Below are positions 33,024 through 63,805 of a stretch of 64,000 nucleotides of DNA, piece by piece (the stretch's first letter is position 1; the number at the start of each line of letters is the position of its first letter). The notes under the pieces were generated by a model. It saw only the letters and a program-made list of their open reading frames with translations. It ran no database searches and had not been told where the DNA came from. The stretch is from an uncultured Psychroserpens sp. GTDB lineage: Bacteria; Bacteroidota; Bacteroidia; Flavobacteriales; Flavobacteriaceae. The stretch is taken from positions 372,001 through 436,000 of the forward strand of contig NZ_CANMRL010000001.1 of NCBI RefSeq assembly GCF_947500255.1. The letters are read 5' to 3'. The translations under genes and the position numbers were made by a program.

Positions 33024-33155
33024 GTTAGATTACACAGTTATGCTACTGGTGATCCTGTACCAGTTCCAAAATTTATTTATGTGTTAATTGCGATAGTTCT
33101 CTTTGTTTCTGTATTGGCATATTTCAGAAATAAAAAATTCAAAAAATCTTTATAA
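33024..33155 (+). pseudogene. Possible gene remnant encoding a membrane anchor
   Basis: An open frame of 43 codons that ends at TAA 33153-33155 and has no ATG before its hydrophobic part. The sequence ATGDPVPVPKFIYVLIAIVL is followed by a basic tail (NKKFKKSL), which looks like the C-terminal anchor of a longer protein. The upstream part is missing: a stop precedes it at 33021. It could be the last piece of a deleted gene, or a small protein with a non-ATG start. Together with the dyad, -7 element and micro-ORF, it accounts for most of the 480-base gap. Confidence 0.35.
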
Positions 33156-36776: not shown

Positions 36777-37199
36777 ATGAACTTAAAAAGAACTTTATTA
36801 ATCGCCATTGGATGTTTTAGCATACAAGTTATGTTTGCTCAAGAACTCACCGCAGAACAAAAAGAACGTCTTGAATACAAGATCGATATTTTCACTTCTG
36901 GAGAAAAAGAAATACAAGAATTATGGTATGAAGACCAAATGGACAAAATGAAACTTAAGGGAGAACTAAGAGAAAATTATAAAAAAATCGTAGTCTATCA
37001 TGCTTATAAAATGGAGCGTCTAGATGATTTAGATAAAAAGTTAAATGATAAAGAGGTATACAAAGCTTTGCAGAAACAGTTAAAATTGATGAATACTGAT
37101 GTCAAAGAGATTTTAAATACTGAACAATATGTAATCCATGATGACACATGGAAGGCGATATTAAGAGCAGTTTACTATCAAAAGAAATGGGATAACTGA
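36777..37199 (+). CDS. Small secreted helical protein, unknown
   Basis: A 140-residue exported protein: signal peptide ending VMFAQ, then an all-helical, highly charged chain with no cysteine in the mature part. I recognise no family. It starts 17 bases after the iron-sulfur subunit, so it belongs to the fumarate operon. The 143-residue protein at 55351-55782 has the same size and a similar pattern (W-x3-Q-x3-M-L, then spaced E, Y, K and R), suggesting distant paralogy. A periplasmic role is likely. Confidence 0.7.
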   Translation: MNLKRTLLIAIGCFSIQVMFAQELTAEQKERLEYKIDIFTSGEKEIQELWYEDQMDKMKLKGELRENYKKIVVYHAYKMERLDDLDKKLNDKEVYKALQKQLKLMNTDVKEILNTEQYVIHDDTWKAILRAVYYQKKWDN

Positions 37200-41786: not shown

Positions 41787-41830
41787 TGCAACTCTTAAAA
41801 AGTTAAGCATTATGAAATCCGCCAAATTAA

Positions 41831-43665: not shown

Positions 43666-43882
43666 AATAATGATTTCGTCTTTAATAATTTGTCCAACTA
43701 TTTGTTGTGAAAAGGTTAAAGCTGCAGATTGTCTTAAAGATTGGTCCAATAGTGCAGATTCACCTGTCCAAATCTAAGTCTCTTTCCCTCCTACTAGTTC
43801 TCCTTTTAAATTATACAAAACAGCCTTGTTAACATATGATTTTGTAAGCACATAATGTCCTAATTCATTAACTGTAATGTAA
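43666..43882 (-). pseudogene. 3' fragment of a duplicated lipoprotein gene
   Basis: These 217 bases align without gaps to 53426-53642 (about 85% identity by eye), the last 72 codons of the lipoprotein gene at 53417-54067. In this copy the codon for Trp in KETWVWTG has become TAG, so the frame is dead. Just past its last base the sequence jumps to the HtrA-like 3' end, exactly as if a single internal deletion of about 1.5 kb had removed everything between. It fills most of the 300-base gap between the pyruvate kinase and UspA genes. Confidence 0.85.
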
Positions 43883-43933
43883 ACTTTAAAACATCAATAG
43901 CTCTTGAAATTTCTTCGATTTTCATACATTTAC
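43883..43933 (+). repeat. Copy of the HtrA-like gene 3' end
   Basis: 51 bases matching 55179-55229 with one mismatch (T at 43904 versus G at 55200). It includes the last codons and stop of the HtrA-like protease gene plus 33 bases downstream. It abuts the lipoprotein-gene fragment and now forms the promoter region of the UspA gene. Confidence 0.9.
43904..43932 (+). promoter_or_regulatory. Promoter of the UspA-family gene
   Basis: TTG (43904-43906), an 18-base spacer and TACATTTA (43925-43932) fit TTG-N17-23-TAnnTTTG with one mismatch, 21 bases before the ATG. It lies inside the duplicated segment. The other copy has GTG in place of TTG, so the -33 element here may have arisen, or been retained, by a single substitution. 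Confidence 0.6.
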
Positions 43934-43953
43934 ACCTAACGAAAACAAACACT

Positions 43954-44784
43954 ATGAAAAAAATAATCTTACCTGTAGATTTTTCGAAGCATTCAGAATA
44001 TGCTTTAGAAACTGCAGCTACTCTAGCTAAAAAGCACAATGCACAACTTATTGTCATGAATATGCTTGAATTATCAGAATCTATCTTTTCAGAATCTAGT
44101 TCAGATAAACAAGAAGAAATGTTATTTATGCTGGCTTCGGCAAATAAAACATTTGAAAGCTTTCTGGATAAAGATTATTTGGAAGGTATAGATGTTGTTC
44201 CAATGATCAAACGTCATAAAGTATTTAAAGAAGTGGATATTATAGCTAAACAGGAAGATGCCGATTTGATTGTAATGGGCTCAAGAGGGCATAGTAATCA
44301 TGACGGAATATTTACTGGTTCTAATACTGAAAAAGTTGTAAGACATAGCGACACACCTGTACTTGTTGTTAAGGGTAAACATACTAATGTTGATTTTGAC
44401 AATGTCGTATTAGCGACAGATTTTTCTGAAGAAAGTATTCCAGCATTTAAAAAGGCCTCTAACCTTTTGAATACATTAGGAAATAAAATCACGCTGTTGC
44501 ATATAAACACACCTCATAACGGTTTCAGAAGTACCGATGAAATTGAAACTAAAGCGAATGAATTCTTAAAAAAAGCAGATGCGAAAGATTGGAAAGATCA
44601 CATCAAATATGCTTCTGACTATTCTGTTGAAGATGGGGTTTTAAATCACTCTAAGAGAACTGGAGCACAGTTATTAGCAATGACAACCCATGGTAAAACA
44701 GGCCTAAGTCATTTCTTTGGTGGTAGTATTGCTGAAGATGTTGTTAATCACTCTATGCTTCCAGTTATTACGTTTAAGTTGTAA
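43954..44784 (+). CDS. Tandem universal stress protein
   Basis: A 276-residue protein with two UspA domains. Both start with the family pattern (KKIILPVDFSKHSEYALE; FDNVVLATDFSEESIPAFKK), and each has an ATP-loop-like region: VMGSRGHSNHDGIFTGSNTE in the first and MTTHGKTGLSHFFGGSIAE in the second. It probably binds ATP and modulates stress or anaerobic survival. It follows the fumarate operon but has its own promoter. A strong terminator follows. Confidence 0.92.
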   Translation: MKKIILPVDFSKHSEYALETAATLAKKHNAQLIVMNMLELSESIFSESSSDKQEEMLFMLASANKTFESFLDKDYLEGIDVVPMIKRHKVFKEVDIIAKQEDADLIVMGSRGHSNHDGIFTGSNTEKVVRHSDTPVLVVKGKHTNVDFDNVVLATDFSEESIPAFKKASNLLNTLGNKITLLHINTPHNGFRSTDEIETKANEFLKKADAKDWKDHIKYASDYSVEDGVLNHSKRTGAQLLAMTTHGKTGLSHFFGGSIAEDVVNHSMLPVITFKL

Positions 44785-44807
44785 CCACAAGCAAATTTGA
44801 ATTCTAT

Positions 44808-44839
44808 AAAAAAGCCTAAACATAAATTTAGGCTTTTTT
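44808..44839. terminator. Bidirectional Rho-independent terminator
   Basis: A 13-base perfect stem (AAAAAAGCCTAAA with TTTAGGCTTTTTT) and a 6-base loop CATAAA. A-run and T-run lie on the outer sides, so it can terminate both the UspA gene (plus) and the TerB-like gene (minus). It lies between the two convergent stops. Confidence 0.85.
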
Positions 44840-44852
44840 ACTTATACAATTC

Positions 44853-45278
44853 TCACATCATCATATTGTCTATCCCTTCTTTATAACTGTCAAAATCACA
44901 ATTATCATCAAATAAATCCAATGACTTTGCTACAATATACTTAACATTACTTGGATCAAATCCCATAGCAGTAGCCATTCGCGTTAACCATTTTGTCTGT
45001 TCTTCACCTTCGATACTTCTATCAGAATGAATCACTTTCACAACGTTATAAAAATGAGATACACGATGTTGATGCAAATATGGAGCAACAATATCATATG
45101 ACATATAAGTATTAGATATAGTATTATACTCAGCATCTGATAGTTCCAATTTATTAGCCAAATGCTTTAGAAATAGTTTTTCTTTTTCAGATGCATTTCC
45201 ATCTCTAAATGTAATTTTCATTATAGCCGCAAAGGCATCGTGGTATTGGCTTTTAGAATGTGCATTTTGTGAACTCAT
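44853..45278 (-). CDS. TerB-like helical protein, copy 1
   Basis: A 141-residue cytoplasmic helical protein. AIMKITFRDGNASEKEKLFL and RMATAMGFDPSNVKYIVAKS resemble the TerB/DUF533 fold, in which acidic residues after DG bind metal. A paralogue lies at 46452-46862 on the other side of the cyclase gene, also on the minus strand. Calling it tellurite resistance would be unjustified; TerB-like folds are widespread in stress and membrane-associated systems. Confidence 0.7.
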   Translation of the reverse strand: MSSQNAHSKSQYHDAFAAIMKITFRDGNASEKEKLFLKHLANKLELSDAEYNTISNTYMSYDIVAPYLHQHRVSHFYNVVKVIHSDRSIEGEEQTKWLTRMATAMGFDPSNVKYIVAKSLDLFDDNCDFDSYKEGIDNMMM

Positions 45279-45374
45279 ACTCTAAATTTAAATATTTATA
45301 ATATAAAGATAAGCTATTTCAAAATTAGTAAATAAGGATTACTTTTATGCAGTTATACCAACAACCAATTTCTA

Positions 45375-46433
45375 ATGAAACTTTTACAAAAAAAACTTCA
45401 TATTCTCAAAGCTTATTTAATTGGTTGGTTTATTGCAAGTATCATATGGTATATGGCATCAAAATTCAGCTCCAATACTATTAATTTCATAAATCAATCA
45501 TTTACAAATGATACTGTGATATTTCTTGTAACATGGATTTCGCAAGCACTACTTTATGGTTTATTACATCTCGCCATAGATCGGTTTATAAAAAACAGAG
45601 TTGCTTTTTATAAGCTTCAAGTTTATTCACTCTTCTCACAAATCATCACTGCTGTATTTTTGATTTTAATAATCTTTTTCTCATTTAAGATTACTAAGGT
45701 CATATCATCAAAAATTACAATTTTAGAGTTTTTAGATAAATTAGATGGCCTATGGATTGTGTTTCTATATGCATTAATTGTGAATTTTGCCATAAGTACC
45801 ATAATCTATATTGATTTAGTATTGGGTAGAGGAAATCTTCTTAAAATGATTAGCGGCAAATTTTATACGCCTAAAGAAGATGAAAAAGTGTTTATGTTTT
45901 TAGATCTAAAAAGCTCAACCACCTATGCCGAAAAATTAGGCCATATTAAGTATAGTAGATTAATTCAGGATTGCTTTCATGATTTAGCTATCGTCAATGA
46001 TTATAAGGCAAGAATTTATCAATATGTTGGAGATGAAGCTGTACTAACTTGGTCAATAAAAGATGGAATAGAGCATAATAATTGTATAAATGCCTTTTTT
46101 GCATTTAAGGATGTACTAAATGAGAAAAGCACATACTATCAAAAGAACTATGGACTTGTTCCCGAATTCAAAGCAGGAGTCAATTTGGGAATTATAATGG
46201 TGACTGAAGTTGGTGTACTAAAGCGAGAAATTGCTTATCATGGAGATACAATTAATACAACTTCAAGATTGGAAGGTGAATGCAATAGATTAGGTGCTGA
46301 ATTGGTTATTTCAGAAAATGTTTTAAACGCCATTGATTTAAATGCTCAATATGCAATAAAGTTTGAGGATAACCTTTTATTAAAAGGGAAAAACACTAAA
46401 GTCAAAATGTATTCATTAAAAAAAACAACCTGA
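45375..46433 (+). CDS. Membrane class III adenylate/guanylate cyclase
   Basis: A 352-residue protein with four N-terminal helices (to about residue 150) and a C-terminal class III cyclase domain. Metal-binding aspartates are present: Asp177 in FLDLKSSTTYAEKLG and Asp220 in YVGDEAVLTW. HGDTINTTSRLEGECNRLGA supplies the transition-state Asn and Arg (N-x3-R). It is thus probably an active cAMP or cGMP synthase. It is flanked by two TerB-like paralogues. A 70-base remnant of a second copy lies at 55.8 kb. Confidence 0.88.
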   Translation: MKLLQKKLHILKAYLIGWFIASIIWYMASKFSSNTINFINQSFTNDTVIFLVTWISQALLYGLLHLAIDRFIKNRVAFYKLQVYSLFSQIITAVFLILIIFFSFKITKVISSKITILEFLDKLDGLWIVFLYALIVNFAISTIIYIDLVLGRGNLLKMISGKFYTPKEDEKVFMFLDLKSSTTYAEKLGHIKYSRLIQDCFHDLAIVNDYKARIYQYVGDEAVLTWSIKDGIEHNNCINAFFAFKDVLNEKSTYYQKNYGLVPEFKAGVNLGIIMVTEVGVLKREIAYHGDTINTTSRLEGECNRLGAELVISENVLNAIDLNAQYAIKFEDNLLLKGKNTKVKMYSLKKTT

Positions 46434-46451
46434 TCTTTTTGGTTCAAATAA

Positions 46452-46862
46452 TCATGTACTTATCTTTTTGATTTCATCTTTATAAGATTCCAAATCACAA
46501 CCCTCTCTAATTAAAGCTAATGATTTAGCAACTATATCTTTAACATTACTAGGGTCAAAACCCATAGCAATTGCCATCCGTTCTAGCCATGTTATACGAG
46601 TACTATTAAACATTAAATTCTCTCCGTAAATTATCTCAGTAATTTTGTATAATGCTTCCTTACGTTCATCAAATGTATAAGGGGCAATTATTTTATAACT
46701 CATGTAGTTTTCTGAAATATCAAAATACTCTGAAGATGTAATTCCTATTTTCTTTCCAAAAACTTGAAGGAATCCTTTTTCCTCCTCTGAGGCATCACCA
46801 TCTCTAAGAGTAATCTTCATTACCGCAGCATAGGCTTCAAAATATTTACTTTTCGCACTCAT
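46452..46862 (-). CDS. TerB-like helical protein, copy 2
   Basis: About 136 residues. Strongly similar to copy 1 (YAAVMKITLRDGDASEEEK and LERMAIAMGFDPSNVKDI versus the matching blocks). I placed the start at 46862 because the paralogue alignment begins MSAKSKYFEAYAA; an ATG at 46880 adds six residues, and the still longer frame up to 47021 overlaps the next gene and is not conserved. It is convergent with the cyclase gene, 18 bases apart. Confidence 0.68.
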   Translation of the reverse strand: MSAKSKYFEAYAAVMKITLRDGDASEEEKGFLQVFGKKIGITSSEYFDISENYMSYKIIAPYTFDERKEALYKITEIIYGENLMFNSTRITWLERMAIAMGFDPSNVKDIVAKSLALIREGCDLESYKDEIKKIST

Positions 46863-47022
46863 TTTAGCAAGTTTTTTCATTACAAGATTAGTTCTATAAA
46901 AATAAATTTTTAAAACGAATAATTGTATTGAAATCCATAATATTAACCTGTGGTTGTTAAAAAGGGAATAAAGGCGTAACTTGGAATTTAATCTCTTATT
47001 CACACTCCTATTCAGATTCATT

Positions 47023-48618
47023 ATGAGATTTTATGTGTTTTTAGTATTTGTTCTATCCTCTGGATTAATGGGCTTAAAAGCTCAAGAAGAGGCTAATTTA
47101 CTTATTAAAGATGGCGTAAACGCTATGGTAGAAAAGGATTACTCAAAATCTCTTGAACTACTTAACCAAGCCAAAGAATTGGCAATTAAAAATCAATGGT
47201 ACGAACAACAATTTCTAGCCATTAATAATATTGGTGCCAATTATTATAATATGCTCGATTATGGTAAGGCTCTAGAATATTATTTGGAAGCATATACTAT
47301 TGCCATTAAAGACTTAGAACCTCAACAAGAAATGATTGTTCTAAATAATATTGCAATTCTCTATTCTAAGGAAGAAAAATTCGACAAATCTGAAGAGTAT
47401 TTTCTCAAGGCATATGACATCGCTAAAAAAAATAATGCAACTGTTAATTTAAGTATTTATGCTATTAATCTAGCCTCTGTTGCAAATAAAAAAAATGAAG
47501 TGTCTAAAGCTAGGTCATTTCTAGATGAAGCCATTAATTTATCCCAAGAATCTCCTGATTTTTTATTGGAAGCTAAAGCCTTGTTAGTAGAAAACTATTT
47601 ATTAAGAGATAATACTGAAAGCTCAAAGAGATTAGCTTTTGAATTATTGCCGCAATTAAATAATGTTACTAATTCTGAACTTAAAAACAATTTATTATTA
47701 TTGATTTCTAGAGCTTTTGAAAAGGAAAATCATATAGAAGATGCTATTTCTTATGCCGAAATGTCTGTGGAAGCTAGTATCACTTTAGAAAGTAAAATAA
47801 ATGCTTTCGAACGACTTTCTAATTTGCTAACTAAAAATGAATCCTATATAGCAGCTTTAAATATAAAAGATTCATTGATTATTGCTAAAGAGAAATTAAA
47901 TACCATAAATGATGGTCAATTATTTGAAAGAAGTAAAGAAAAGTTTGAGATTGAAAATTATAGAAAAGAATTAAATGACCAACAACAGGAAATTGAAAAA
48001 GAGAGAAAGGCTTTCTATACAATTTTGGGCGCAGCTTTATTATTGTTTCTTCTAATTATTTGGGCTTTAAGAAACCAAATTTTAAAAAATAAACAGCGTA
48101 AAATTCTTGAAAAAAGAAATCAAGAAATTCTGACTTTAGAATTAGAGAAAGAAAAAAATGAAAATTTATTACTCGAAAAACAGCTAAAAAGCGAAATTGA
48201 GTCCAAGAACAGAAAACTCTCGGCAAAGGCGCTTTTCTTATCAGATAGAAATAAGCTTGTTACGACTATTATTTCCGAATTAGAAGCAAACAATACCTTG
48301 GAACATTCTTCAACTATTAAACAGCATATTAAGAACCTAAAAAGCTACTTAAAAACAGATGAAGAATGGGACAGCTTTATTAAGCATTTTGAAGAAGTAA
48401 ACCAAGGGTTTTTAAGCAATCTTAAAAGAAAGCATACTTCAATTAATGCTAATGATATTCGGTTCATTTCTTATGTATATATGGACCTTTCTCCAAAAGA
48501 GATTGCTACAGTTTTTAATATCACTCCCGAAGCTTGTAGAAAACGGAAAGAACGTATTTCAAAAAAACTTGGATTAGGTGAGAGTAACGATCTCTACCAC
48601 TATTTAGCTTCTCTATAA
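47023..48618 (+). CDS. TPR sensor protein with C-terminal LuxR-like HTH
   Basis: A 531-residue protein. It has a signal peptide or anchor (ending LKAQ), about six tetratricopeptide repeats (residues 25-290, e.g. NNIGANYYNMLDYGKALEYY), one transmembrane helix (AAFYTILGAALLLFLLIIW region, about residue 332-352), a coiled coil rich in Glu and Lys, and a C-terminal helix-turn-helix (MDLSPKEIATVFNITPEACR). It would carry a periplasmic signal to DNA. I chose the ATG at 47023 because it gives a proper signal peptide. Such genes are common and uncharacterised in flavobacteria. Confidence 0.82.
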   Translation: MRFYVFLVFVLSSGLMGLKAQEEANLLIKDGVNAMVEKDYSKSLELLNQAKELAIKNQWYEQQFLAINNIGANYYNMLDYGKALEYYLEAYTIAIKDLEPQQEMIVLNNIAILYSKEEKFDKSEEYFLKAYDIAKKNNATVNLSIYAINLASVANKKNEVSKARSFLDEAINLSQESPDFLLEAKALLVENYLLRDNTESSKRLAFELLPQLNNVTNSELKNNLLLLISRAFEKENHIEDAISYAEMSVEASITLESKINAFERLSNLLTKNESYIAALNIKDSLIIAKEKLNTINDGQLFERSKEKFEIENYRKELNDQQQEIEKERKAFYTILGAALLLFLLIIWALRNQILKNKQRKILEKRNQEILTLELEKEKNENLLLEKQLKSEIESKNRKLSAKALFLSDRNKLVTTIISELEANNTLEHSSTIKQHIKNLKSYLKTDEEWDSFIKHFEEVNQGFLSNLKRKHTSINANDIRFISYVYMDLSPKEIATVFNITPEACRKRKERISKKLGLGESNDLYHYLASL

Positions 48619-48623
48619 GGCAT

Positions 48624-48656
48624 TGTCACGTTATTCTAATAAAATGTCACACTATT
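48624..48656 (+). promoter_or_regulatory. Helically phased direct repeats upstream of T9SS gene
   Basis: TGTCACGTTATT (48624-48635) and TGTCACACTATT (48645-48656) match at 10 of 12 positions and start exactly 21 bases apart, two DNA turns. They lie between the TPR-HTH gene and the T9SS gene that starts at 48723. Tandem sites with this spacing suit a dimeric activator. Confidence 0.45.
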
Positions 48657-48722
48657 TCGGTCTACATTTTTGCTAGATGTTTTGGTTTTTAGAAAGATTT
48701 GCCTAAATCTAAATTAATTACC

Positions 48723-51047
48723 ATGAAAACAACTTTACAATCATTTTTTACTCTAGCACTAATTATAAGTTGCTCTTTTAATTCCTTTGCTCAAATTAGC
48801 TATGAAGGAAATAGTACATACGGAAGGTTAGACGATGTAACCTATGACCTTAATACAGAAAACACATTATATGCAGTTTCACTTGGAAACCACATAATGA
48901 AATCTATTGATAATGGTATCAATTGGGAAGTCATGTATTCATTTCCTGAAAGCGGTACTCAAATTAGTGACTTAAGATTAATGGGGAATGATACCCTTAG
49001 TTTTATTATTAAAAACTCTGGTCAGAACGCGAATAACACCATTTATTTTTTCGATTTAAACACTCAAAATATATCACAACAGATTACAGCACCTAATCCA
49101 GGCTTATCAGATCAACAATGGGTTACATCTTATGATATTTATAATCAAGATCCAAACATTATCTTGTTTGCTCAAGGATTTAATTATCAGAACATAAATT
49201 ATGTAAAAGTATTTTACACAACCAATGCTGGAAGTACTTGGTCTGAAGTTTATTTTAATACAAATTATGATTCTGTATTTATAAACAAGGTTGCGATTCA
49301 CCCTAATAATCCTGGTAGTTTATATATGTCGAGAAATTATGGACCAAATGGTGTTGATGGTGGTTTATTTGTATCAAATGATGCCGGTGGAACATGGACT
49401 GAAAAATTAGCAGGTATTGTATTAAGTCCAATTACTTTTAATCCACAGAATGCTTCAGAGATGTTATTAGGAACTTCATCATCGTTTGGTGGTGGAGATC
49501 AGAATCTATACCACTCTTTAGATAATGGTGACACTTGGCAACCTATGACCATAACATGGACCAATCTATACGACTGGGCTGATGACGATATCACTCGAAT
49601 TGAATTTAATCCTACAGATGCCAATAAGATAATAGTACTAGATACCAATGAAATGATAATATCAAGTGATGGTGGTGCAACATGGACTAACCATATTTAC
49701 CCGCTTAATGATGACTTCACTGAAAACCCAGACTCTTATTTTTATGGGCTTAATGTGTCTTTCAACCCTTTCAATAACAATGAATTAATGGTCAATGCCA
49801 ACTATCATCCTTTTAAATCGACTGATGGTGGTGTAACTTTAGAAAAATTAGAGAATCCTTTCTTTCTTTCTAATAAAGTAGCAGTCTCTCAAATTGGATC
49901 TGAAAATTTATATTATGGTGTACAAGGTGGTTTAGTCCATAAAGACATGACTACAAATTTAGAAACAGCACATAATATCATACCTCTTAATATTGGGAAT
50001 ATTGGTAATGGAAATACATATTTTATAGATCGAACTACTGAAGGTAGAGTCTATAGTTTTACAAGTGGAGGCTTTGGTAATACATTACTTAATGTGAGTA
50101 ATGAATTTGGAGCAAATCCATTTCCTATTTACGGTGTACAATTTGACAACCTTCTTAGTACGACTACAGATCCATCAAATAATAATATTGTTTGGGCGTC
50201 TTTTCAAAATTCAGGAACCTACAAAATTGATTTTTCAGATCCAATGAGTCCTACACCTACACAAATTACACTTCCTGAAAGTGGGTTGCATTGGTCAACA
50301 GCTTTTGATGGTCAAAATCCTAATACTGTATTTGTTTCAGTTGGTACAAACTTTTACAAATCTTCAGATAATGGTGCTACCTGGGAGTTGAAGAGTGACG
50401 GCATTTCCTTAACACCAAATAGTGATGCTATTTTAGATATTAAACAAAATCCAAATAATAATCAAGAAATCGTAATTGCAACTACTCAAGGTATATTTAA
50501 GACAACAGATTATGCTGAAAACTGGACACAGGTCTATATAGGTGATAATGTCACTTCAATAAAATATTCTGGTACTAATCATCTTGCCGCTTCAATATAT
50601 TCGTCACCAACAACTGAAGCTCAAATATTAGTGAGTAAAAATAATGCTGATACTTGGATCGAAATTCCTGTTCAAGCCATTGAAAATGTTGGCTCTCAGA
50701 GTATGGACTTTACTTTTGATGTTAATTCTGTTACAGTATATATAGCAACTCCAGACCTTGGGATTATGACGTATAATATTAATACAGACACATTATCAAC
50801 TCCAGATAATGAATACAGCGAATTAGATATTAAAATGTATCCAAATCCTGCAAAAGACATTTTAAATATTCAAATTCCAGAACATTTAAATATTGATAAC
50901 GTGAGTATATTTTCAGCAACAGGTCAAAAAGTCAATGACTATGACACGCTTCAAAACATAAACGTGTCTTCTCTATCAACTGGGTTATACTTTGTTCGTA
51001 TTCAAAGTGGGAAAACTGTTTGGATAAAAAGACTTAGTAAACTCTAA
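48723..51047 (+). CDS. T9SS cargo protein with BNR/sortilin-like propeller repeats
   Basis: A 774-residue secreted protein: signal peptide ending NSFAQ, then repeated Asp-box motifs (SIDNGINWE, SNDAGGTWTE, SLDNGDTWQ, SSDGGATWT, SSDNGATWE) forming one or two beta-propellers. A C-terminal type A sorting domain begins YPNPAKDILNIQIPEHLNID and ends FVRIQSGKTVWIKRLSKL. It is exported by type IX secretion and anchored or released at the surface. Asp boxes do not imply sialidase activity; no arginine triad is visible. The sorting domain is nearly identical in DNA to that of the next gene. The start at 48723 gives a proper signal peptide. Confidence 0.85.
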   Translation: MKTTLQSFFTLALIISCSFNSFAQISYEGNSTYGRLDDVTYDLNTENTLYAVSLGNHIMKSIDNGINWEVMYSFPESGTQISDLRLMGNDTLSFIIKNSGQNANNTIYFFDLNTQNISQQITAPNPGLSDQQWVTSYDIYNQDPNIILFAQGFNYQNINYVKVFYTTNAGSTWSEVYFNTNYDSVFINKVAIHPNNPGSLYMSRNYGPNGVDGGLFVSNDAGGTWTEKLAGIVLSPITFNPQNASEMLLGTSSSFGGGDQNLYHSLDNGDTWQPMTITWTNLYDWADDDITRIEFNPTDANKIIVLDTNEMIISSDGGATWTNHIYPLNDDFTENPDSYFYGLNVSFNPFNNNELMVNANYHPFKSTDGGVTLEKLENPFFLSNKVAVSQIGSENLYYGVQGGLVHKDMTTNLETAHNIIPLNIGNIGNGNTYFIDRTTEGRVYSFTSGGFGNTLLNVSNEFGANPFPIYGVQFDNLLSTTTDPSNNNIVWASFQNSGTYKIDFSDPMSPTPTQITLPESGLHWSTAFDGQNPNTVFVSVGTNFYKSSDNGATWELKSDGISLTPNSDAILDIKQNPNNNQEIVIATTQGIFKTTDYAENWTQVYIGDNVTSIKYSGTNHLAASIYSSPTTEAQILVSKNNADTWIEIPVQAIENVGSQSMDFTFDVNSVTVYIATPDLGIMTYNINTDTLSTPDNEYSELDIKMYPNPAKDILNIQIPEHLNIDNVSIFSATGQKVNDYDTLQNINVSSLSTGLYFVRIQSGKTVWIKRLSKL
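50838..51047 (+). repeat. Duplicated T9SS sorting-module DNA, copy A
   Basis: 210 bases that align gap-free with 52249-52458 at roughly 90% identity by eye, beginning at the YPNPAKD codons and ending at the stop codon. The preceding parts of the two genes are unrelated in sequence. This points to a recent duplication or gene conversion limited to the sorting domain. Confidence 0.9.
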
Positions 51048-51156
51048 TCTTAATCTTCTATATAAAAAGTATAGACAATCGTATTCTTATTTCATTTGGA
51101 ACTAATTGTATAATTAATTAGCACCTTATTTTATTAACTGACTAAATCTTATTTAA

Positions 51157-52458
51157 ATGAAAATCAATGCACTTAGTATAAACAGAATTTCAACTTTTAT
51201 TATAATCCTGCTTATGTATTCAAGCAACTGTAATGCACAGTTAAATATTCTTGATATTGGATTTATATTAACTGATGTTAGTGATGATGGTACCATTGCT
51301 GTAGGTCATAATAATGCAGAACATTTTATATGGACCGAAGCTAATGGTGTAAATTTAATTGGAGGTGTCGAACCTTCATTTTACGGTGGTCAAACTAGAA
51401 TTAATGGGGATGGGACTATAATTGCAGGCACACGCATTAATCCAAGTAACAGTCTAGGGGAACTAAGTTCGTATGATGTCGATACACAAGCATGGACATC
51501 ATACGGTTCTTTAGGTTTCTCGTCTCAAGGCTCTGCAAGTTCTGCTTGGGGAATTTCATCAGATGGATCAACAATTGTTGGCCTAGGCTGGTTCAGCTCT
51601 GGGTCTGCTCATGCCATAAAATGGACAGCCGATGGAGGTCTAGAAGATCTTGGAAGTACAGTACCTGGTCAAAGCACAAGAGCGAATGCCGTCAATAATG
51701 ATGGTAGCGTAATTGGTGGATGGCAAGATAATTCAGATGGAATTCGGCAAGGTGCCATATGGACTAATGGTGTTCAGACCTTATTAACCCATTCTAATAA
51801 CAATCCCGCTGCTGAAGTTGGCACTTTATCTGATGACGGCCTTTGGGCTGGTGGTGGTGGACAATCACCTACAAATGAATTTCAGGCATGGAAATGGAGT
51901 CAATCATCAGGAATCATTAATATTGGACCTTCTCCAGTAAGTGGATGGAGAGGAACCACAACAGGCTTATCATCTGATGGTGAAATTGCAGTTGGTTATT
52001 ATAGACAATGGCCAGGACCAGCAGCTTTTGGAAGAGGTTTTATACATACAGAAAGCGAAGGATTAGTGGACCTTACCGACTATGCTATTTCAGTAGGTAT
52101 AGATGTTCAAGGCGCTATATTAGCATTACCCTTAGGATTATCTGACGATGGTTCCACCGTAGTTGGAGTGACAAATAATGGCAGAGGATTTATTTTTAGA
52201 TTACCTCTACTTGGAGTTGAAGATAATGTATTTGATGATTTTTCGTTGTATCCAAATCCTGCCAAGGATATTTTAAATTTTCAAATTCCAGAACATTTAA
52301 ATATTGATCGTGTGAGTATATTTTCGGCAATAGGTCAAAAAGTCAACGACTATGACACGCTTCAAAGTATAAACGTGTCTTCTCTATCAACTGGGTTATA
52401 TTTTGTTCGTATTCAAAGTGGAAAAACAGTTTGGATAAAAAGATTTAGCAAATTATAA
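51157..52458 (+). CDS. T9SS cargo protein with HAF-like repeats
   Basis: A 433-residue secreted protein with a signal peptide ending CNAQ. The body consists of about seven repeats of roughly 45 residues with the pattern SDDG-T-AVG and A-IWT-G-L, resembling HAF extracellular repeats, probably a beta-propeller. The C-terminal type A sorting domain (YPNPAKDILNFQIPEHLNID onwards) matches that of the preceding gene almost base for base. Its function is unknown; surface binding is plausible. A terminator-like hairpin follows. Confidence 0.83.
   Translation: MKINALSINRISTFIIILLMYSSNCNAQLNILDIGFILTDVSDDGTIAVGHNNAEHFIWTEANGVNLIGGVEPSFYGGQTRINGDGTIIAGTRINPSNSLGELSSYDVDTQAWTSYGSLGFSSQGSASSAWGISSDGSTIVGLGWFSSGSAHAIKWTADGGLEDLGSTVPGQSTRANAVNNDGSVIGGWQDNSDGIRQGAIWTNGVQTLLTHSNNNPAAEVGTLSDDGLWAGGGGQSPTNEFQAWKWSQSSGIINIGPSPVSGWRGTTTGLSSDGEIAVGYYRQWPGPAAFGRGFIHTESEGLVDLTDYAISVGIDVQGAILALPLGLSDDGSTVVGVTNNGRGFIFRLPLLGVEDNVFDDFSLYPNPAKDILNFQIPEHLNIDRVSIFSAIGQKVNDYDTLQSINVSSLSTGLYFVRIQSGKTVWIKRFSKL
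52249..52458 (+). repeat. Duplicated T9SS sorting-module DNA, copy B
   Basis: Partner of 50838-51047, same length, no indels. Synonymous changes dominate the differences, while the encoded residues differ mainly at conservative positions. Confidence 0.9.
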
Positions 52459-52509
52459 TTTGCATATTCTTTTCTTATTATATCATAGATAATCCCTCTA
52501 TTTTATTTC

Positions 52510-52537
52510 AACAGGTATCATAAATATGGTGCCTGTT
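52510..52537 (+). terminator. Putative Rho-independent terminator
   Basis: AACAGGTATCAT and ATGGTGCCTGTT form a 12-base stem with two G-U pairs and a 4-base AAAT loop, followed by TT. It lies 52 bases after the HAF-repeat gene. The remaining bases to the next gene (52679) are AT-rich with nothing recognisable. Confidence 0.6.
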
Positions 52538-52678
52538 TTGCATTTATTATATCTCATAAATTATTAGGATTCGATTTTCCAATAGGATAACATCAAATAT
52601 TGAAGTAAATTTAAATTCTCTATTAGAATTATTTCTAGTAATCAAACGTTTTAAAAGAATAAAATCATAATCTCAATA

Positions 52679-53407
52679 ATGAAAAAAAACACATTCATTA
52701 CTTTTTTTACTATTGTATTAGTGCTAGTATCTCATAGTAGTTTTGCACAAGATGACGATTTAGATTTTAGAAAAAATCACATTAGCGTTGACCCTATACT
52801 TCCGCTTTTTGGAACATTTCAAATACATTATGAACGTGGCATAGGAATTAATACATCTTTGGGTGTGTCTTTTGGTTATAAAGGGTCTTCTGGTGTCTTT
52901 GAAGTGACTCAAATAAGCTTTGATCGCTTTGATTCTAATGATTTAAATTTCTCTGGATTTAAAGTTATTCCAGAATTTAGATGGTATTTTCAAAAACGTA
53001 AATCAGGACTCAATGGTCTGTATTTAGGTGCTTATTTTAAATATCAAGACGCAAGTGCAGATTTAGGAGGCGTATATACATCTAGAGAAGACGAAGTCAG
53101 TGATATTTTAATTGACGCAAACTTAAAGTCCTCCGTTTTTGGAATAGAACTTGGATATAAATGGCTGTTAAAAAAAGGTTTTTTTATTGATCTAATTTTT
53201 GCAGGCCCTGGATTTAGCACTAATAGAATTACTTTAACAGAAATTAGTCCTGTGCCTCAAGCTTTTTATGATGATTTATCAGAAGCATTGCAAGATATAG
53301 GCATCATAGATTTTATTGATCCCGATTTTAGAGTTAATGGTAATCAAGAAACTAAAATTACACTTCCAGCTTGGCGATATGGAATAAAGTTAGGATACTC
53401 GTTTTAA
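52679..53407 (+). CDS. Putative outer-membrane beta-barrel protein
   Basis: A 242-residue secreted protein with signal peptide ending SFAQ. The mature part begins NHISVDPILPLFGTFQIHYE and alternates beta-strands, ending YGIKLGYSF, a typical barrel terminus. It resembles small DUF3575-type outer-membrane proteins of Bacteroidota but I cannot assign a family. It is convergent with the lipoprotein gene, whose stop is 9 bases away. Confidence 0.72.
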   Translation: MKKNTFITFFTIVLVLVSHSSFAQDDDLDFRKNHISVDPILPLFGTFQIHYERGIGINTSLGVSFGYKGSSGVFEVTQISFDRFDSNDLNFSGFKVIPEFRWYFQKRKSGLNGLYLGAYFKYQDASADLGGVYTSREDEVSDILIDANLKSSVFGIELGYKWLLKKGFFIDLIFAGPGFSTNRITLTEISPVPQAFYDDLSEALQDIGIIDFIDPDFRVNGNQETKITLPAWRYGIKLGYSF

Positions 53408-53416
53408 AACTAAAAT

Positions 53417-54067
53417 CTATTTTGGAATAATGATTTCATCTTTAATAATCTGTCCAACCATTTGTTGTGAAAAGGTTAAAGCTGCAGATTGTAATGAATA
53501 AGGGTCCACTAGCGAAGATTCACCAGTCCAAACCCAAGTCTCTTTCCCTTCTACTAGCTCTCCTTTTAAATTATATAAAACAGCTTCAATAACATAAGAT
53601 TTTGTAGGCACATAATATCCAGGTTCGCTAACGGTAATGTAACGTTGGTAAATATGCTTCCCCACTTTATAATAACCAGCTGGTACTGAGTAGCTATTCC
53701 CTTGTTGATAGCGATGACCATCGTTAGTACTAATTAAACTCATAGTAATTACGCCATCCAGATTATTATCCTTAATTATTTTTATCAGGTTTGCTGGTTG
53801 TTGATCCTTTTCACTCATATTTTGAGGAAATATATCTATCCCTTGAACCACATTAATCCCATTGTTTTTAAATAAATTAACAGCTGTTCTTTCAAATGCT
53901 AATCTAGACGTCAAATCATTACTTATGCCAATAACTGCTATTTTAGAATATGTTTTATCTGTATATCCTTCTTTCACAAAACTAGAGGACAGTCTCGGAG
54001 CGCAACTAAAAATCAAAAAAGAAATAGAAAAGAGAATAAAACCACTTTTAATGGATAAAGTTTTCAT
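53417..54067 (-). CDS. Putative lipoprotein, DUF4136/CsgG-like fold possible
   Basis: A 216-residue lipoprotein (lipobox IFSC, near Cys22). The mature domain alternates strands and helices (YSKIAVIGISNDLTSRLAFE, LDGVITMSLIST, VIEAVLYNLKGELVEGKETW), reminiscent of DUF4136 or CsgG-type envelope domains. A dead 217-base copy of its 3' end lies at 43666-43882. It is divergent from the HtrA-like gene, 112 bases apart. The exact function is unknown. Confidence 0.72.
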   Translation of the reverse strand: MKTLSIKSGFILFSISFLIFSCAPRLSSSFVKEGYTDKTYSKIAVIGISNDLTSRLAFERTAVNLFKNNGINVVQGIDIFPQNMSEKDQQPANLIKIIKDNNLDGVITMSLISTNDGHRYQQGNSYSVPAGYYKVGKHIYQRYITVSEPGYYVPTKSYVIEAVLYNLKGELVEGKETWVWTGESSLVDPYSLQSAALTFSQQMVGQIIKDEIIIPK

Positions 54068-54179
54068 AACGAAATTAGAATTTAAAAATGAATATTTCAG
54101 TTCAATTATATTAAAAAATAGCCTAATTTAGAGCTATATAAAGATACGTATTCTTTATCAAAAAAGAGTTTATAGTCCT

Positions 54180-55196
54180 ATGAAAAACACATTAATCATT
54201 ATCATTTTTTTCTTCAGTTTTGTCCTCAATGCTCAAGATCTTTCAAAAATTTATGAACAAGTAAGTCCTGCTGTAGTAGCCATTTTTACTCAAGAAAACA
54301 CCATCACTACTAATCAGGCAAATACTTCACAAAAAGTTAGCACTAGTGGTTTGGGTTCAGGTTTTATGATTTCAAACGAATTAATAATTACTGCCGCTCA
54401 TGTCGTTAGAGTGCCCGAATCCTTGGTTGTTAAGTTTTCAGATGGAGAAACCATACCTGCCAAAGTGATATCATCATATGACAGCGCTGATATAGCACTA
54501 ATTAAATTATTAAGACCAAAACTAAATGCAATCACAGTGTCCTTTGGAGATTCTGATAAAATGAAAATTGGCCAACAAGTATTTGTAATAGGTGTTCCTC
54601 TTGGTGTAGGCTTTTCACTATCATCAGGATACATTAGCGCATTCAAAAGACAAAATTTAGGAAAAAACCAATTTACAAACACAGAGTTCATTCAAACAGA
54701 TGCTGCTATAAATCAAGGTAACTCTGGAGGTCCAATGTTTAATTTAGAAGGCGAAGTTATAGGTGTTGTAAGTCATATAAAATCAAATTCGGGAGGCTCC
54801 GATGGGATTGGTTATGCTTCAAGTTCAAATTTAGTGGCTAAATTATTATTGAATAATAAAATCCCTTGGTTTGGAGCCGAGTTTTACACGCTCACAGGGA
54901 AAGAAGCTAATCTTTTTAACTTGCCTCAAAAAAGCGGACTATTAGTTCAACGAGTTGCATCATTAAGTATTTTTGATGATATGGGAGTAAAAGGAGGTGA
55001 TATGGAGATTTCTATTGGGCTAAAAAAAATAATTGCAGGAGGTGATATTATATTAGCCTTTAATGATATACAGTTTGAATTAACTGACGACACTTTAATT
55101 AAACTCGCTGAATTTGGACAAAATTTATCAAATGATGACGCCTTCGAAATTACAGTTCTAAGATCAGGCAAAATTATCACTTTAAAACATCAATAG
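54180..55196 (+). CDS. HtrA/Deg-like S1C serine protease
   Basis: A 338-residue exported protease with signal peptide ending LNAQ and a complete triad: His74 in ITAAHVVRV, Asp104 in DSADIALIKL and Ser182 in QGNSGGPMF. Residues about 220-338 form one PDZ-like domain (KKIIAGGDIILAFNDIQF). It probably degrades or holds misfolded envelope proteins. Classical DegP has two PDZ domains; one resembles DegS. The 3' end is duplicated at 43883-43933. Confidence 0.9.
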   Translation: MKNTLIIIIFFFSFVLNAQDLSKIYEQVSPAVVAIFTQENTITTNQANTSQKVSTSGLGSGFMISNELIITAAHVVRVPESLVVKFSDGETIPAKVISSYDSADIALIKLLRPKLNAITVSFGDSDKMKIGQQVFVIGVPLGVGFSLSSGYISAFKRQNLGKNQFTNTEFIQTDAAINQGNSGGPMFNLEGEVIGVVSHIKSNSGGSDGIGYASSSNLVAKLLLNNKIPWFGAEFYTLTGKEANLFNLPQKSGLLVQRVASLSIFDDMGVKGGDMEISIGLKKIIAGGDIILAFNDIQFELTDDTLIKLAEFGQNLSNDDAFEITVLRSGKIITLKHQ

Positions 55197-55229
55197 CTCG
55201 TGAAATTTCTTCGATTTTCATACATTTAC
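55179..55229 (+). repeat. HtrA-like gene 3' end, intact copy
   Basis: Partner of 43883-43933 (50 of 51 bases identical). Includes GTG-N18-TACATTTA, a promoter-like pattern with a defective -33 element, about 120 bases before the next gene. Confidence 0.85.
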
Positions 55230-55350
55230 GTCTTATTAATTCAGAAGTGTATTTTATTTTTGCACTAAATGTTATGAGTCCCTGAAAAGTTTAAACTTAT
55301 TAAGTGAATAGAACTTAACTTAAAAATGAATCCAATTAAAGATTAAAATC

Positions 55351-55782
55351 ATGAAAATTATTAAAGCGTTAATCATTTTAGTATGCGTGTTTTCAATGTC
55401 AGCTGTAAATGCTCAAAGTCAAAAGGAAAATGAAAAGGAAGAATATGGATATGGTATTTTTTCAATGGAAGAGTTCTCTAGTTTACATATTTGGGTTGAT
55501 AACCAAGTTGAAGGATTGATGCTTAGCGCTGAAACACTAATAGAATATGAGACTTTATTTGCATTTCACCTTGATAAAATAGGACGCTATAAGGATAAAG
55601 AAAACAGAGATAAAGTCTTGCCTGAAGCTGAGTATTTAAAAAGCATTAAGGAAAATATTGGTAACTTAAATTCGAGTGTTGAACCCATTTTATCTAAAGA
55701 TCAAAACAAAAAACACTTAAAGCTAATGGCTGAATTTGAAAAAATCCTTACCAATAAGCTTTTACTGAATAAAAAGAAATAA
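55351..55782 (+). CDS. Small secreted helical protein, unknown
   Basis: A 143-residue exported protein with signal peptide ending AVNAQ and a charged all-helical mature part (EEFSSLHIWVDNQVEGLMLS onward, ending KLLLNKKK). No family is recognised. It resembles the 140-residue protein of the fumarate operon in size, composition and spacing of W, Q, M, H, K and R residues. It lies after the HtrA-like gene. Confidence 0.65.
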   Translation: MKIIKALIILVCVFSMSAVNAQSQKENEKEEYGYGIFSMEEFSSLHIWVDNQVEGLMLSAETLIEYETLFAFHLDKIGRYKDKENRDKVLPEAEYLKSIKENIGNLNSSVEPILSKDQNKKHLKLMAEFEKILTNKLLLNKKK

Positions 55783-55802
55783 AAAAAAGCATTCTATCAA
55801 GA

Positions 55803-55872
55803 CTAATGCAAGATTAGAAGGTTAATGTAATAGACTAGGTGCAGAATCACTTATTTCAGAAAACGTTTTTTA
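55803..55872 (+). pseudogene. Remnant of an adenylate cyclase gene
   Basis: About 70 bases aligning with 46258-46327 of the intact cyclase gene at roughly 80% identity by eye. It still encodes RLEG, then a stop where the intact gene has Glu, then CNRLGAESLISENVF. The upstream cyclase coding sequence is absent. It is the last trace of a second cyclase copy. Confidence 0.75.
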
Positions 55873-55890
55873 AAAAACACAATTCATTTC

Positions 55891-58800
55891 TTAAAACCCA
55901 AAACCTAGTTTAAAAGCGAAACGTAAACCATCATCACTATTAAATGCTGAAATATTTGCAGTGATCATATCTGCAGCATTAGCAAAAATACCACCTCCAA
56001 ATGAATTATTCCATCGATCGGAATCTTCACCATCTAGCCAAACACGACCATAATCTACACCACCATAAAAGCCAATATTTAATGGTAATAATCCTGTTTT
56101 GATTTTATTTAAATTGAGCCTTAAATCGGTACTTTGAACAAAAGCACTGTTACCAATAAAACGTTCATTTCTATAGCCACGAAGTCCTTCATTTGCTCCT
56201 AAATTCGCACCTTGATAAAATTCGAAATCATCTCCCAAATTGATCTGCGCTTTAAGTTTTGTCGCTAAAACTAATTGTCCGCTTGGCACTAATTTATAAT
56301 CGAAGCTAAGTTCTGGAATGATATATCCAAAACCACTGGATGTACTCACATTATTTTTATATCCTGTTTCTAATGCTATCATCATACCCAATGTTGGAAA
56401 AGCAGCATTATCTGTATTGGCATAGTGATACTTTGCTTCAATGCCATAAAAATCTTGCTTGTCAAACACAGAATTATTAGCAGGTAGTAAAGCGATAAAA
56501 CGACCTTCAGTTCGTTCTACTTCATTAGACTCGTAACTCACACCAACTTTAAAACTAGCACCTAATTGTCCTCTCCAAATTAATGAAGGTGACACTTTAA
56601 ATGTTCTAATCTTTACACGATTATAATCGAGATCTACATCTAAACCATCGTCATCATCAGCTTCAGGGTTTAGCGACTCGTTACCAAATCCAAAAAAGTT
56701 AACGGCATAATTAGGACTTGTAAAATGTGCTTGAATTCCTAGATTCATATGTCCGACTACATTAGCAAACTCGCCATTATATCCCAAATCAAAACCTTGT
56801 GTAGCAAAATAGTAAGCCGCAGAAAAGATATGTTGTGATGTAAAAGGATTACGTTCAAAGCCGTAATTAGTTAAAGTATTAGTGAAGCCTAATTTGAATC
56901 CGTCATCAGGATTAGCACCTAAGGTTGGAATAAACTGATTACTACTATTTTTTAGTTTTTTATAGTCGTAGATATTCGTCTCATAATCATCGGTTAGTTT
57001 GACTTTTCCTTTGTTGGTTAAAAACTCGCTTTCTTTTGATTTATAATCGTATATCTTTACTTTTTTACCATTTTGAATATCATAAACATCTTTATTTTGC
57101 CCACCAATCAATCGTATCTTTATGAGCTTGTTGCCTTCACCTGACACCTTAAATACATCATCGTCATCTAAACCATAAATCCAAATCTCTTTGGTGTCTT
57201 CACAGGTATAAGTACGCTCGTGAAACACATCAGATTTCTCGCCTTTTTTAATACGATAAGCGGTGACTTTTGTATCGCCATTTGGCAATCGTACAATATC
57301 AAACCAATCGTCTTTATCGGTTCCTTTAATCAAACCAAACATGTTGATATGATTGTAGTATTCATCAGATATCTTCTGAAGATTTGATCGTCTGCCTTGT
57401 AATTTTCGCTTGATATCTTGAACCGTTTCTTGATTGACTTCAGAAGGGAAATACGTAAACGCTTCATCAATAACCGCGTCTGTAAGATTAGTAACGATCT
57501 GTTGTACTTGTGCATTCCAAACGTCGCGATTTGATTCATTTATTAAAGCCATATCCAAAGGGTAAGGCTCTAGATTAAACCACTTCGGACTCTTTAACTC
57601 TTCATCATAACTTTTCATTAAGCGTAATGCAGGTACAACCGTTGTTGCAAAACTAAGTAATGCACCATCGGCCATGATAGAAAACGCCTGATCACGATCT
57701 CGAGGTACAGGTCGATAAATCGTTTTTCCATTTTCTTTAAACTTAGCCCAACGCCATTGATCTTCATGTCTGTCCCAGTCACCAATAAGCATGTCAAATA
57801 AACGTGCCCTAATGTATGCTGGTTCGTCTAGAATATGATCTTCGTCTTCATGAAGTTCTTTTAGTAAATCATCTGTACTTATCAATTCATCTGAAAACCC
57901 AAAACTCACTTTATCTCCATGACCATCCGAAGCACGTTCTTCTATCATATATAGTTCATCTCCAAACTCATCATTATACATGCCTAGAGCTTCTTGTTTA
58001 GGAATGTAATATAAAACAGGATTCGTATGATAAACACCTACAGCCTTAGATAACGTTGCAATAGTAAAAGGTGCATATGGATGAGACCCAGTAAACACAT
58101 CTAAAAGTAAACCTTCGGTATACGTATCATCAAATTGTCCTTCAATATATTGATCTTTAAAAGCTACAGCTTGTAAATATTGTAATGCATTTTTACGAAG
58201 GGCTCTCATCACATATTCTCTCCCTTGCTTATCTTCTAATCGAACAGATTTTGATTGGTGCCCTCCTCCTTTACGAGTTGGCCTTAAACCTCCAAATAGC
58301 GTATCAAGACTTACTGTTGGGGCAGATATTTTTTGACTAAATTCTTCTCTGTAACGTTCTCCCCAAAGTGTTTTATAGAACCCTCCTTTCGTCGTTTCTT
58401 CTTCAGTGTATATTGAAGCTGTTGTCTGTTTGGCTATATTATCGTTATAATTTACACTTGCTATTTCTTTTGTAGCCGCATGTATTTCTTTTTGAAAAAC
58501 TGTTTCATTAGTAGAAGCCTTTACAAAGCTTACAAAAGACGATCCATCTTTAAACACATCAAGAACAGCATAACCTTGAGTTCCATATGAAAACTGACCA
58601 CCTTGAACATTTCGTGTTGCCGAAATTTTAGATCCTGATCCACTAACAATTTGAGGTAAGTTATCCTGAATTAAATATTGCAAGCTATGTTCATGACCTG
58701 AAACAAAAATCGTTTTATCATTCTCTTGAGATAGTGTGATAATACGTTTTCTAAACTCATTATAGTATCTATTCTGAATATCAACAGTGGTCACACCTCC

Positions 58801-59613: not shown

Positions 59614-59646
59614 TTGGACGGTTTTGTTTTCTAAAGATATTGATTC

Positions 59647-60591: not shown

Positions 60592-60592
60592 A

Positions 60593-61738: not shown

Positions 61739-61761
61739 TGATTGATGATGAAATTTTTGAA

Positions 61762-62979: not shown

Positions 62980-62989
62980 AATTATGCAT

Positions 62990-63798: not shown

Positions 63799-63805
63799 AA
63801 TTATT

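Follow-up and report, generated by a model that had tools for sequence, protein, structure and literature searches.

Gene order of a Psychroserpens island probably derived from one tandem duplication and complementary gene loss

The stretch from 43.7 to 55.9 kb of the window (the whole 64-kb piece of a Psychroserpens genome that was analysed) sits inside a 23-kb island, and its gene order is very probably best explained by one tandem duplication of the segment from block X to the gene TerB2, followed by complementary loss from the two copies. According to this model the segment that begins directly behind the porin gene and ends with TerB2, with the composition X-pyk-OMP-lipoprotein-HtrA-USP-TerB-cyclase-TerB2, would have been duplicated once, and complementary deletions would have converted the order ABCD into B-D-A-C (A being X, B pyk, C OMP-lipoprotein-HtrA and D USP to TerB2). 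Copy 1 would retain pyk, USP, TerB, cyclase and TerB2, and copy 2 would retain X, OMP, lipoprotein and HtrA. Scraps of the lost copies would be left between pyk and USP (lipoprotein and HtrA tail), between X and OMP (pyk leader) and after HtrA (cyclase). The model builds on collinear self-matches, on the scraps, on a relative that has the order in single copy, and on a partial order in another genus, all of which are observed directly; the second copy presumably arose as a tandem repeat, and the event would have taken place in the lineage of the island before the island arrived in this genome. The original prediction had recognized duplicated lipoprotein, HtrA and cyclase sequences, but the unit is larger and includes X, pyk, OMP and TerB2; the change in gene order, the third scrap (52582-52665) and the absence of the island from close relatives had been missed.

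The island and the gene order in relatives

The island (32871-55890) carries fumarate-reductase-type genes, Dcu, an aspartase-like gene, the porin gene and pyk, and continues to HtrA. The closest relative, G004, has no island and only 164 bp at the same place, and the island is missing at this site in all four congeners for which the surroundings of g1240 were fetched (G004, G010, G001 and G011), a count that covers these four genomes, with 18 more in the genus. When compared with G010, dS is 0.24-0.79 in 14 of 17 island genes, the exceptions being HtrA (1.0), USP (1.65) and the cyclase (not computable), whereas six flanking core genes give 1.35-2.4 or are not computable. Judged from these values, the island apparently moves between lineages. 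A Pfam scan of 18 island genes, a set without the ORFs at 36777 and 39205, revealed no mobility domains, transposase and integrase included, and the island is not assigned to any integrative-element family.

The congener G010 has a contiguous single-copy cluster with the order X (three genes)-AcH-pyk-OMP-lipoprotein-HtrA-USP-TerB-cyclase-TerB2, in which DNA self-comparison found no such scraps. The order in the window is pyk-[lipoprotein and HtrA scraps]-USP-TerB-cyclase-TerB2-X-OMP-lipoprotein-HtrA-ORF143-[cyclase scrap]. G368, which belongs to another genus, has porin, two ORFs, pyk, OMP, HtrA and TerB contiguously; block X is missing from the fetched G368 region, and of all fetched regions just those of G000 and G010 contain it. 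A weak lipoprotein-like scrap was also seen between OMP and HtrA in G368. The same families occur in other orders in G038, G060 and G143, so the cluster is fluid in any case, and the HtrA neighbourhoods of Algibacter, Tamlana and others, with few other cluster genes, were of no help. These comparisons derive from a family search in 397 genomes, of which 30, the window's own included, gave a match with an E value of at most 1e-120; the surroundings were fetched for six of the other 29 (G368, G060, G299, G259, G143 and G252) and also for G038, whose match coordinates are the same as those of G161 of that list. Within the genus a full-length match to pyk606 is found in only 2 of 23 genomes, and none of the fetched regions holds an intermediate with both copies intact.

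Remnants of the lost gene copies

Self-BLAST of the 64-kb window gave three matches, for the lipoprotein, the HtrA tail and the cyclase, which are collinear and on the same strand. This bears out the prediction that two regions share the same genes in the same order and orientation, and no fetched region of a relative has the fragments without a duplication.

Copy 1 opens with the pyruvate-kinase-family gene pyk (41831-43651, plus strand, 606 aa), which lies 44 bp from the porin gene and is devoid of the leader seen in G368. Downstream lies a dead lipoprotein 3' fragment with one in-frame stop (43666-43882, minus strand), matching 53426-53642 over 217 bp without gaps (85.7%, E 2e-60). It is joined to the end of HtrA (43883-43933, plus strand), which is identical in 50 of 51 positions (E 4e-18) to 55179-55229 (plus strand) in copy 2; the match had been taken as a 51-base HtrA segment, but only 18 bases, the end of the HtrA coding sequence, are coding and the other 33 bp belong to the HtrA-USP intergenic region. 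The intact counterparts are the lipoprotein gene at 53417-54067 (minus strand) and the HtrA-like protease gene at 54180-55196 (plus strand). The junction at 43882/43883 is exact, and the two intact flanks share 0 bases there. The stretch absent from it corresponds to 53643-55178 of the window, which spans 1,536 bp; in the alignment with single-copy G010 its length is about 1,535 bp. A single deletion of 1,536 bases, as had been proposed, fits the exact join; copy 1, however, needs a second deletion, since OMP is also gone between the end of pyk (43651) and the start of the fragment (43666).

When compared with G010, the lipoprotein fragment and the intact copy have 21 sites in common, with 22 private changes in the dead fragment versus 8 in the live copy (relative-rate p 0.011). 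The 22 changes are spread evenly over the codon positions (6/8/8); the shared sites, this even spread and the faster change are as would be expected of a dead duplicate that arose within the lineage, and the fragment looks older than the presence/absence difference of the island. The HtrA tail differs at 1 of 51 positions and the lipoprotein fragment at 31 of 217 (Fisher p 0.014); because the tail is more alike, the scraps need not be of one age, barring selection on the 51 bases.

Copy 1 continues with the universal stress protein gene (USP, 43954-44784, plus strand), the first TerB-like gene (44853-45278, minus strand), the intact adenylate/guanylate cyclase-domain gene (45375-46433, plus strand) and TerB2 (46452-46862, minus strand), which is related to the first TerB-like gene, has no Pfam match of its own and ends the copy. 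The 104 bp that follow (46863-46966) are the presumed junction of the tandem duplication, for which no source was found among the G010 and window islands. Copy 2 then starts with block X (46967-52615, plus strand), encoding a TPR protein and two proteins that carry Por secretion tails, one with Sortilin/BNR repeats (782 aa) and one of 433 aa; a terminator-like hairpin lies at 52510-52537. The outer-membrane barrel gene OMP (52679-53407, plus strand, 242 aa) precedes the intact lipoprotein and HtrA genes. Downstream of HtrA, ORF143 (55351-55782, plus strand, no Pfam match) takes the place of the lost USP, TerB and cyclase 5' part, and behind it the copy-2 cyclase scrap (55791-55889, plus strand) terminates at the island edge at 55890/55891. 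Self-BLAST pairs 46264-46324 with 55809-55869 (85%, E 2e-10), and with one gap the alignment extends over the whole scrap, which contains two in-frame TAA. The predicted dead cyclase remnant with a stop is thus real but longer than the 70 bases ascribed to it. Its alignment score is 99 against the cyclase of the window and 56 against that of G010. Each of the scraps of lipoprotein, HtrA tail and cyclase is nearer to the intact copy of the window than to G010, and these distances together with the single-copy cluster of G010 and the contiguous pyk-OMP-HtrA-TerB run of G368 support the old segmental duplication with complementary loss that had been suggested.

The third scrap lies between X and OMP, in the slot that duplication and loss predict for it. 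The 84 bases at 52582-52665 (plus strand), probably the leader that belonged to the lost second copy of pyk, are 80% identical to the sequence immediately 5' of pyk in G368 (score 83; the best of 1000 shuffles reached 42 and none equalled the score). The same leader scores only 21 upstream of the window's own pyk. Its 5' part overlaps the spacer between g433 and AcH in G010, so X was upstream of pyk in both lineages. The more distant pyk leaders of G060, G299, G259, G143 and G038 had no match to 52459-52678 above shuffles, their scores being reached by 48 to 199 of 200 shuffles; the result therefore rests on G368 and the partial overlap in G010. The retained leader may now serve OMP, with pyk probably read from the porin side. 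Sigma-70-type promoters, the type scanned for, were not in excess (20 versus 17.9, sd 4.1, in shuffles).

No trace of a second USP or TerB gene was found by local alignment with shuffles or by tblastx/blastn of the island gaps against G010 and G368. The same searches for AcH gave nothing above chance, and local alignment with shuffles and tblastx/blastn against G010 and G368 brought up no X scrap at 41787-41830, where the first copy of X would have stood. The idea that AcH was removed together with the copy-2 deletion was dropped: AcH stands between leader and pyk only in G010, the genome of the window has just a 59% paralogue of AcH on another contig, and nothing in the G368 region that was fetched matches AcH, so that it is more likely an addition in G010. 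In DNA self-BLAST (E 1e-3) none of the genes of the duplicated unit is kept twice, and the only further self-matches in the island were the relatedness of TerB1 and TerB2, present in G010 too, and Por-tail repeats in X.

Duplication and loss versus other explanations

The derived order consists of two collinear runs of the G010 order, pyk-USP-TerB-cyclase-TerB2 and X-OMP-lipoprotein-HtrA. Enumeration of block orders revealed that one duplication-loss step yields the order of the window and that a single block transposition cannot. The order alone is weak evidence, however, because 12 of the 24 block orders can be reached by one duplication-loss step. One duplication predicts scraps in four slots, of which three are occupied and the fourth (X) is empty, and the losses fall on both copies in the self-BLAST. 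Two or more independent moves of blocks, or small events of the copy-and-paste type, without a tandem duplication could also be imagined, as two block transpositions can produce this order. Transposition is common in bacteria, which speaks for such moves. We consider them very unlikely, however: cut-and-paste gives no second, diverged copy of the cyclase or of the lipoprotein 3' end, it would be a coincidence that three of the four slots predicted by a single duplication hold scraps, and there is no transposase among the 18 Pfam-scanned island genes.

A related cluster could instead have been acquired from another strain and recombined beside the resident one, the redundant genes then being lost in a complementary manner. 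The apparent movement of the island between lineages, with its low dS to G010 relative to the core, and the uneven divergence within it, to which HtrA, USP and cyclase contribute, are in line with such an acquisition. The comparable copies (lipoprotein, HtrA tail and cyclase), however, resemble each other more closely than they resemble G010, which would make the donor a near relative and the process hardly unlike a duplication; we regard this origin as improbable. Finally, X might have lain outside the unit and been inserted later between two copies of pyk-OMP-...-TerB2, as its absence from the fetched G368 region would allow. This is disfavoured and appears extremely improbable, for the pyk leader follows X in the window and X lies upstream of AcH-pyk in G010.

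Relation to known systems of gene-order change

Going beyond tandem duplication with complementary loss, the locus may be a natural relic of a completed order change of the SNAP/TDRL type, with complementary loss of leaders as well as of genes, with transcription units newly formed, and with the finished arrangement carried later to another genome on an island, a reading to which we give slightly less than an even chance. As part of it, OMP would have inherited the pyk leader, pyk would have come to lie behind the porin gene, and ORF143 behind the old upstream sequence of USP. Tandem duplication-random loss (DRL/TDRL) is described, in the extracts of the article considered here, for animal mitochondrial genomes such as those of Aneides salamanders (PMC5745709). 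Those cases share with ours the tandem copying of a segment, opposite losses, a new order and pseudogene scraps that mark the former places; they differ in that we deal with a bacterial chromosome, a seemingly mobile island and a gene parted from its leader.

For bacterial gene order the SNAP hypothesis (Brandis and Hughes 2020, PMC7055797) likewise invokes segmental duplication, after which both copies lose genes asymmetrically and a new order becomes fixed. A further element of SNAP is positive selection for dosage when a new niche is entered; for the present locus such selection would be hypothetical. The unit, which in G010 spans about 14.5 kb and, leaving AcH aside, has 11 genes, lies towards the lower limit of the 'tens to hundreds of genes' named in the abstract of that paper. 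Its authors regard pseudogenes with matching active copies as possible remains of old duplications and recommend searching for them; in 2020 they saw no direct empirical evidence of rearrangements caused by SNAP in modern bacterial species, on the ground that nothing unique marks an event once it is complete. Rearrangements of operon clusters have similarly been ascribed to segmental duplication and/or transposons (Brandis 2021, PMC8046335); duplication with asymmetric loss is the mechanism in common, but the author of that paper describes the precise mechanism as not determinable, whereas here the scraps and the single-copy relative allow it to be read. Among the matches listed by full-text searches, mostly of open papers (for example 20 of 60 or 10 of 616) and judged by titles and beginnings of abstracts, there was no natural bacterial relic of such a duplication and loss. 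By its title, a study by Cao et al. of 2022 in Mol Biol Evol reportedly concerns large-scale irreversible gene-order rearrangement brought about by positive selection in the course of niche adaptation, and would be an experiment and not a natural relic.

The locus bears on the question of how gene order changes in bacteria. Its three scraps, taken together with the single-copy cluster of G010 and with G368 as a partial outgroup, allow one event, including the parting of a gene from its leader, to be read step by step. The locus also suggests a recipe for finding others: at each breakpoint of a locally shuffled cluster one would look for the scrap that duplication and loss predict.

Remnants of lost copies and gene order in relatives

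The three matches behind the original prediction of an old segmental duplication with complementary gene loss are genuine, on the same strand and collinear (self-search of the window: E 2e-60, 4e-18 and 2e-10). The lipoprotein fragment (43666-43882) directly adjoins an HtrA tail (43883-43933) without a gap, and 20 bases separate this tail from the start of the universal stress protein (USP) gene. The join equals the outcome of losing the equivalent of 53643-55178, as had been proposed, but a single deletion is not enough, since a second one, removing the outer-membrane barrel gene (OMP), is required between the pyruvate-kinase-family gene (pyk) and the fragment. The cyclase remnant does carry a stop; its alignment, however, spans 55791-55889 (one gap) and contains two in-frame stops.

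The congener G010 has a single copy of the cluster in the order porin, X (three genes of 535, 782 and 433 aa), AcH (439 aa, which we take to be acetyl-CoA hydrolase-like), pyk, OMP, lipoprotein, HtrA, USP, TerB, cyclase and TerB2, and self-comparison of G010 revealed no scraps of the window's kind. G368, from another genus, has Dcu, an aspartase-like gene, a 356-aa ORF, porin and two ORFs followed by pyk (84% at the amino acid level), OMP, HtrA and TerB. As pyk, OMP, HtrA and TerB are contiguous there too, their contiguity is older than the arrangement of the window, where pyk and OMP lie 9 kb apart. The X, USP and lipoprotein genes are missing from the G368 cluster, with only distant relatives (24-28% at the amino acid level) 10-20 kb off. 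A weak lipoprotein-like match of 38 bp (E 0.001) lies between OMP and HtrA at G368:C4:73779-73816 (L146 8979-9016) and suggests that the lipoprotein gene was lost independently in this lineage. The same families occur in yet other orders in G038, G060 and G143, which counts against over-reading gene order.

With X as block A, pyk as B, OMP-lipoprotein-HtrA as C and USP to TerB2 as D, G010 reads ABCD and the window BDAC. Enumeration showed that no single block transposition leads from ABCD to BDAC, that two suffice and that one tandem duplication with complementary loss suffices as well, while the reverse change is impossible by one duplication-loss step. Because 12 of the 24 block orders are within reach of one such step, the order by itself is weak evidence. 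The duplication-loss model, though, also defines four slots for the lost copies, namely A1 ahead of pyk, C1 in the pyk-USP interval, B2 in the X-OMP interval and D2 behind HtrA, and the scraps already described occupy C1 and D2. A search for a third scrap in the listed intergenic gaps of at least 41 bp revealed in slot B2, immediately 5' of OMP (ATG 52679), a stretch (52582-52665) that matches at 80% the 81 bases of G368 ending within the pyk start codon (E 1e-15; score 83, top of 1000 shuffles 42). Toward its 5' end this stretch overlaps the G010 spacer that follows X, a place at which pyk is now preceded by AcH, so that X stood before pyk in both lineages. Only 44 bp separate the window's own pyk gene (41831) from the porin, and it has no such leader (best local score upstream 21). 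Local alignment of the gap before pyk found no scrap of the first X copy in slot A1; three of the four predicted slots hold scraps.

The island and its site

G004, judged by this region the closest relative among the genomes compared, is collinear with positions 2-32870 (except for an additional ~0.9 kb of G004 at 16320) and 55891-64000, with 95-97% identity in each aligned block and a divergence of 0.4-8.4% per full kb, and has 164 bp in place of the 23 kb at 32871-55890. This island comprises genes for a fumarate reductase/succinate dehydrogenase flavoprotein and iron-sulfur protein, a DcuA/DcuB transporter, a presumably aspartase-like gene, the porin and then the shuffled cluster, whose cyclase scrap forms the right edge. 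It is also missing at the same site in the congeners G001, G011 and G010, the first two additionally being without the efflux genes left of it. The G010 site is filled by a different 5-kb insert (L117 3137-8089; G010:C1:463136-468088), whose ORFs we assume to be TonB-dependent-receptor-like and lipoprotein-like; perhaps the site is an insertion hotspot.

Some 160 bp in from the left edge, 33030-33153 corresponds to the last ~123 bp of a gene that is full-length (1045 aa) in G010 (80.6% to G010), presumably cytochrome-c-biogenesis-like and preceded there by what we take to be nrfHA-like genes. With the cyclase scrap on the right, both edges thus coincide with or are close to cut genes of a G010-like cluster. 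The 5' end (signal peptide, 32871-32945) of a 780-aa outer-membrane efflux gene is sharply unlike G004 from the island edge onward, as if replaced together with the island.

Age and probable movement of the island

With G010 as third sequence, the 217 bp of the lipoprotein show 22 private changes in the fragment, 8 in the intact copy and 21 in G010, and one all-different site. The changes spread over the codon positions as 6/8/8 in the fragment versus 6/1/14 in G010; the even spread resembles that of dead DNA, the comparison of third positions between the fragment and G010 being suggestive only (Fisher p 0.07). The fragment branch amounts to ~0.109 changes per site (95% 0.066-0.172), and for 12 genes outside the tract the median synonymous divergence between the window's genome and G004 is ~0.23, or ~0.115 per branch. 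The HtrA tail/USP upstream stretch differs at 1/51 sites versus 31/217 in the fragment (Fisher p 0.014). Constraint on the USP upstream stretch in both copies would explain this; alternatively, the two stretches may differ in age or conversion may have occurred later.

Flanking segments 29250-32870 and 55891-56141 are nearly identical to G004, most neighbouring kilobases differing by 3-8%, and form a tract of recent recombination on both sides of the island site. Mismatches number 0-4 in each of the 14 windows (250 bp) of 29.25-32.75 kb; there are 6 in the final 121 bp up to the left edge and 1 in the 250 bp that follow the island; the two left-adjacent genes have synonymous divergences of 0.034 and 0.051. 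Because this tract has a recent common ancestor and only one of the two genomes carries the island, the gain or loss of the island seems to postdate the decay of the fragment, provided that the two flanks were not exchanged independently of each other. Since the site lacks the island in 4/4 relatives examined, the simpler reading is that the island arrived already rearranged; loss in G004 is the less simple one.

Compared with G010, dS is 0.24-0.79 for 14 of the 17 island genes versus 1.35-2.4 for five core genes (a sixth was not computable), which points to horizontal movement. HtrA (1.0), USP (1.65) and cyclase (not computable) at 43954-46433 and 54180-55196 fall outside this pattern, their divergence from G010 being much higher than that of most island genes, and the island is therefore a mosaic. 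The 782- and 433-aa proteins end in Por secretion tails (50836-51048 and 52247-52459) that are 91% identical in the window and 77% in G010, likely by recent gene conversion.

Proposed course of events

Natural bacterial relics of duplication-loss were absent among the literature matches listed, a 2022 paper on such rearrangement being outside this scope. As outlined in PMC5745709, duplication-random loss of mitochondrial genomes is the same process as that proposed here. Our case also matches the bacterial SNAP proposal of PMC7055797, whose authors state that direct empirical evidence from present-day species was lacking as of 2020 and, as a test, put forward pseudogenes for which an active copy exists. 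SNAP is defined by selection as its driver, which is only a possible factor here, and we class the finding as duplication-random loss rather than SNAP.

From the directly observed scraps, slots and single-copy order, a tandem duplication from just after porin to TerB2 (~14.5 kb in G010) can be reconstructed, which would have arisen through a non-homologous join; no repeat was found at the ends of the duplicated unit. At least five deletions would have followed, removing X1 and the pyk1 leader, OMP1, lipoprotein1/HtrA1, pyk2, and USP2-TerB-cyclase2 5' part, and the copy-2 TerB2 was probably lost at the island edge. Small ORFs of 140 and 143 aa lie at 36777-37199 and 55351-55782; the latter, ORF143, has no Pfam match, and weak relatives lie near HtrA, cyclase or Dcu genes in G038, G037, G368 and Tamlana. 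The losses would have swapped upstream sequences: OMP would now stand behind the leader of pyk, ORF143 would have been placed behind the former USP upstream stretch, and pyk may perhaps be read from the porin side.
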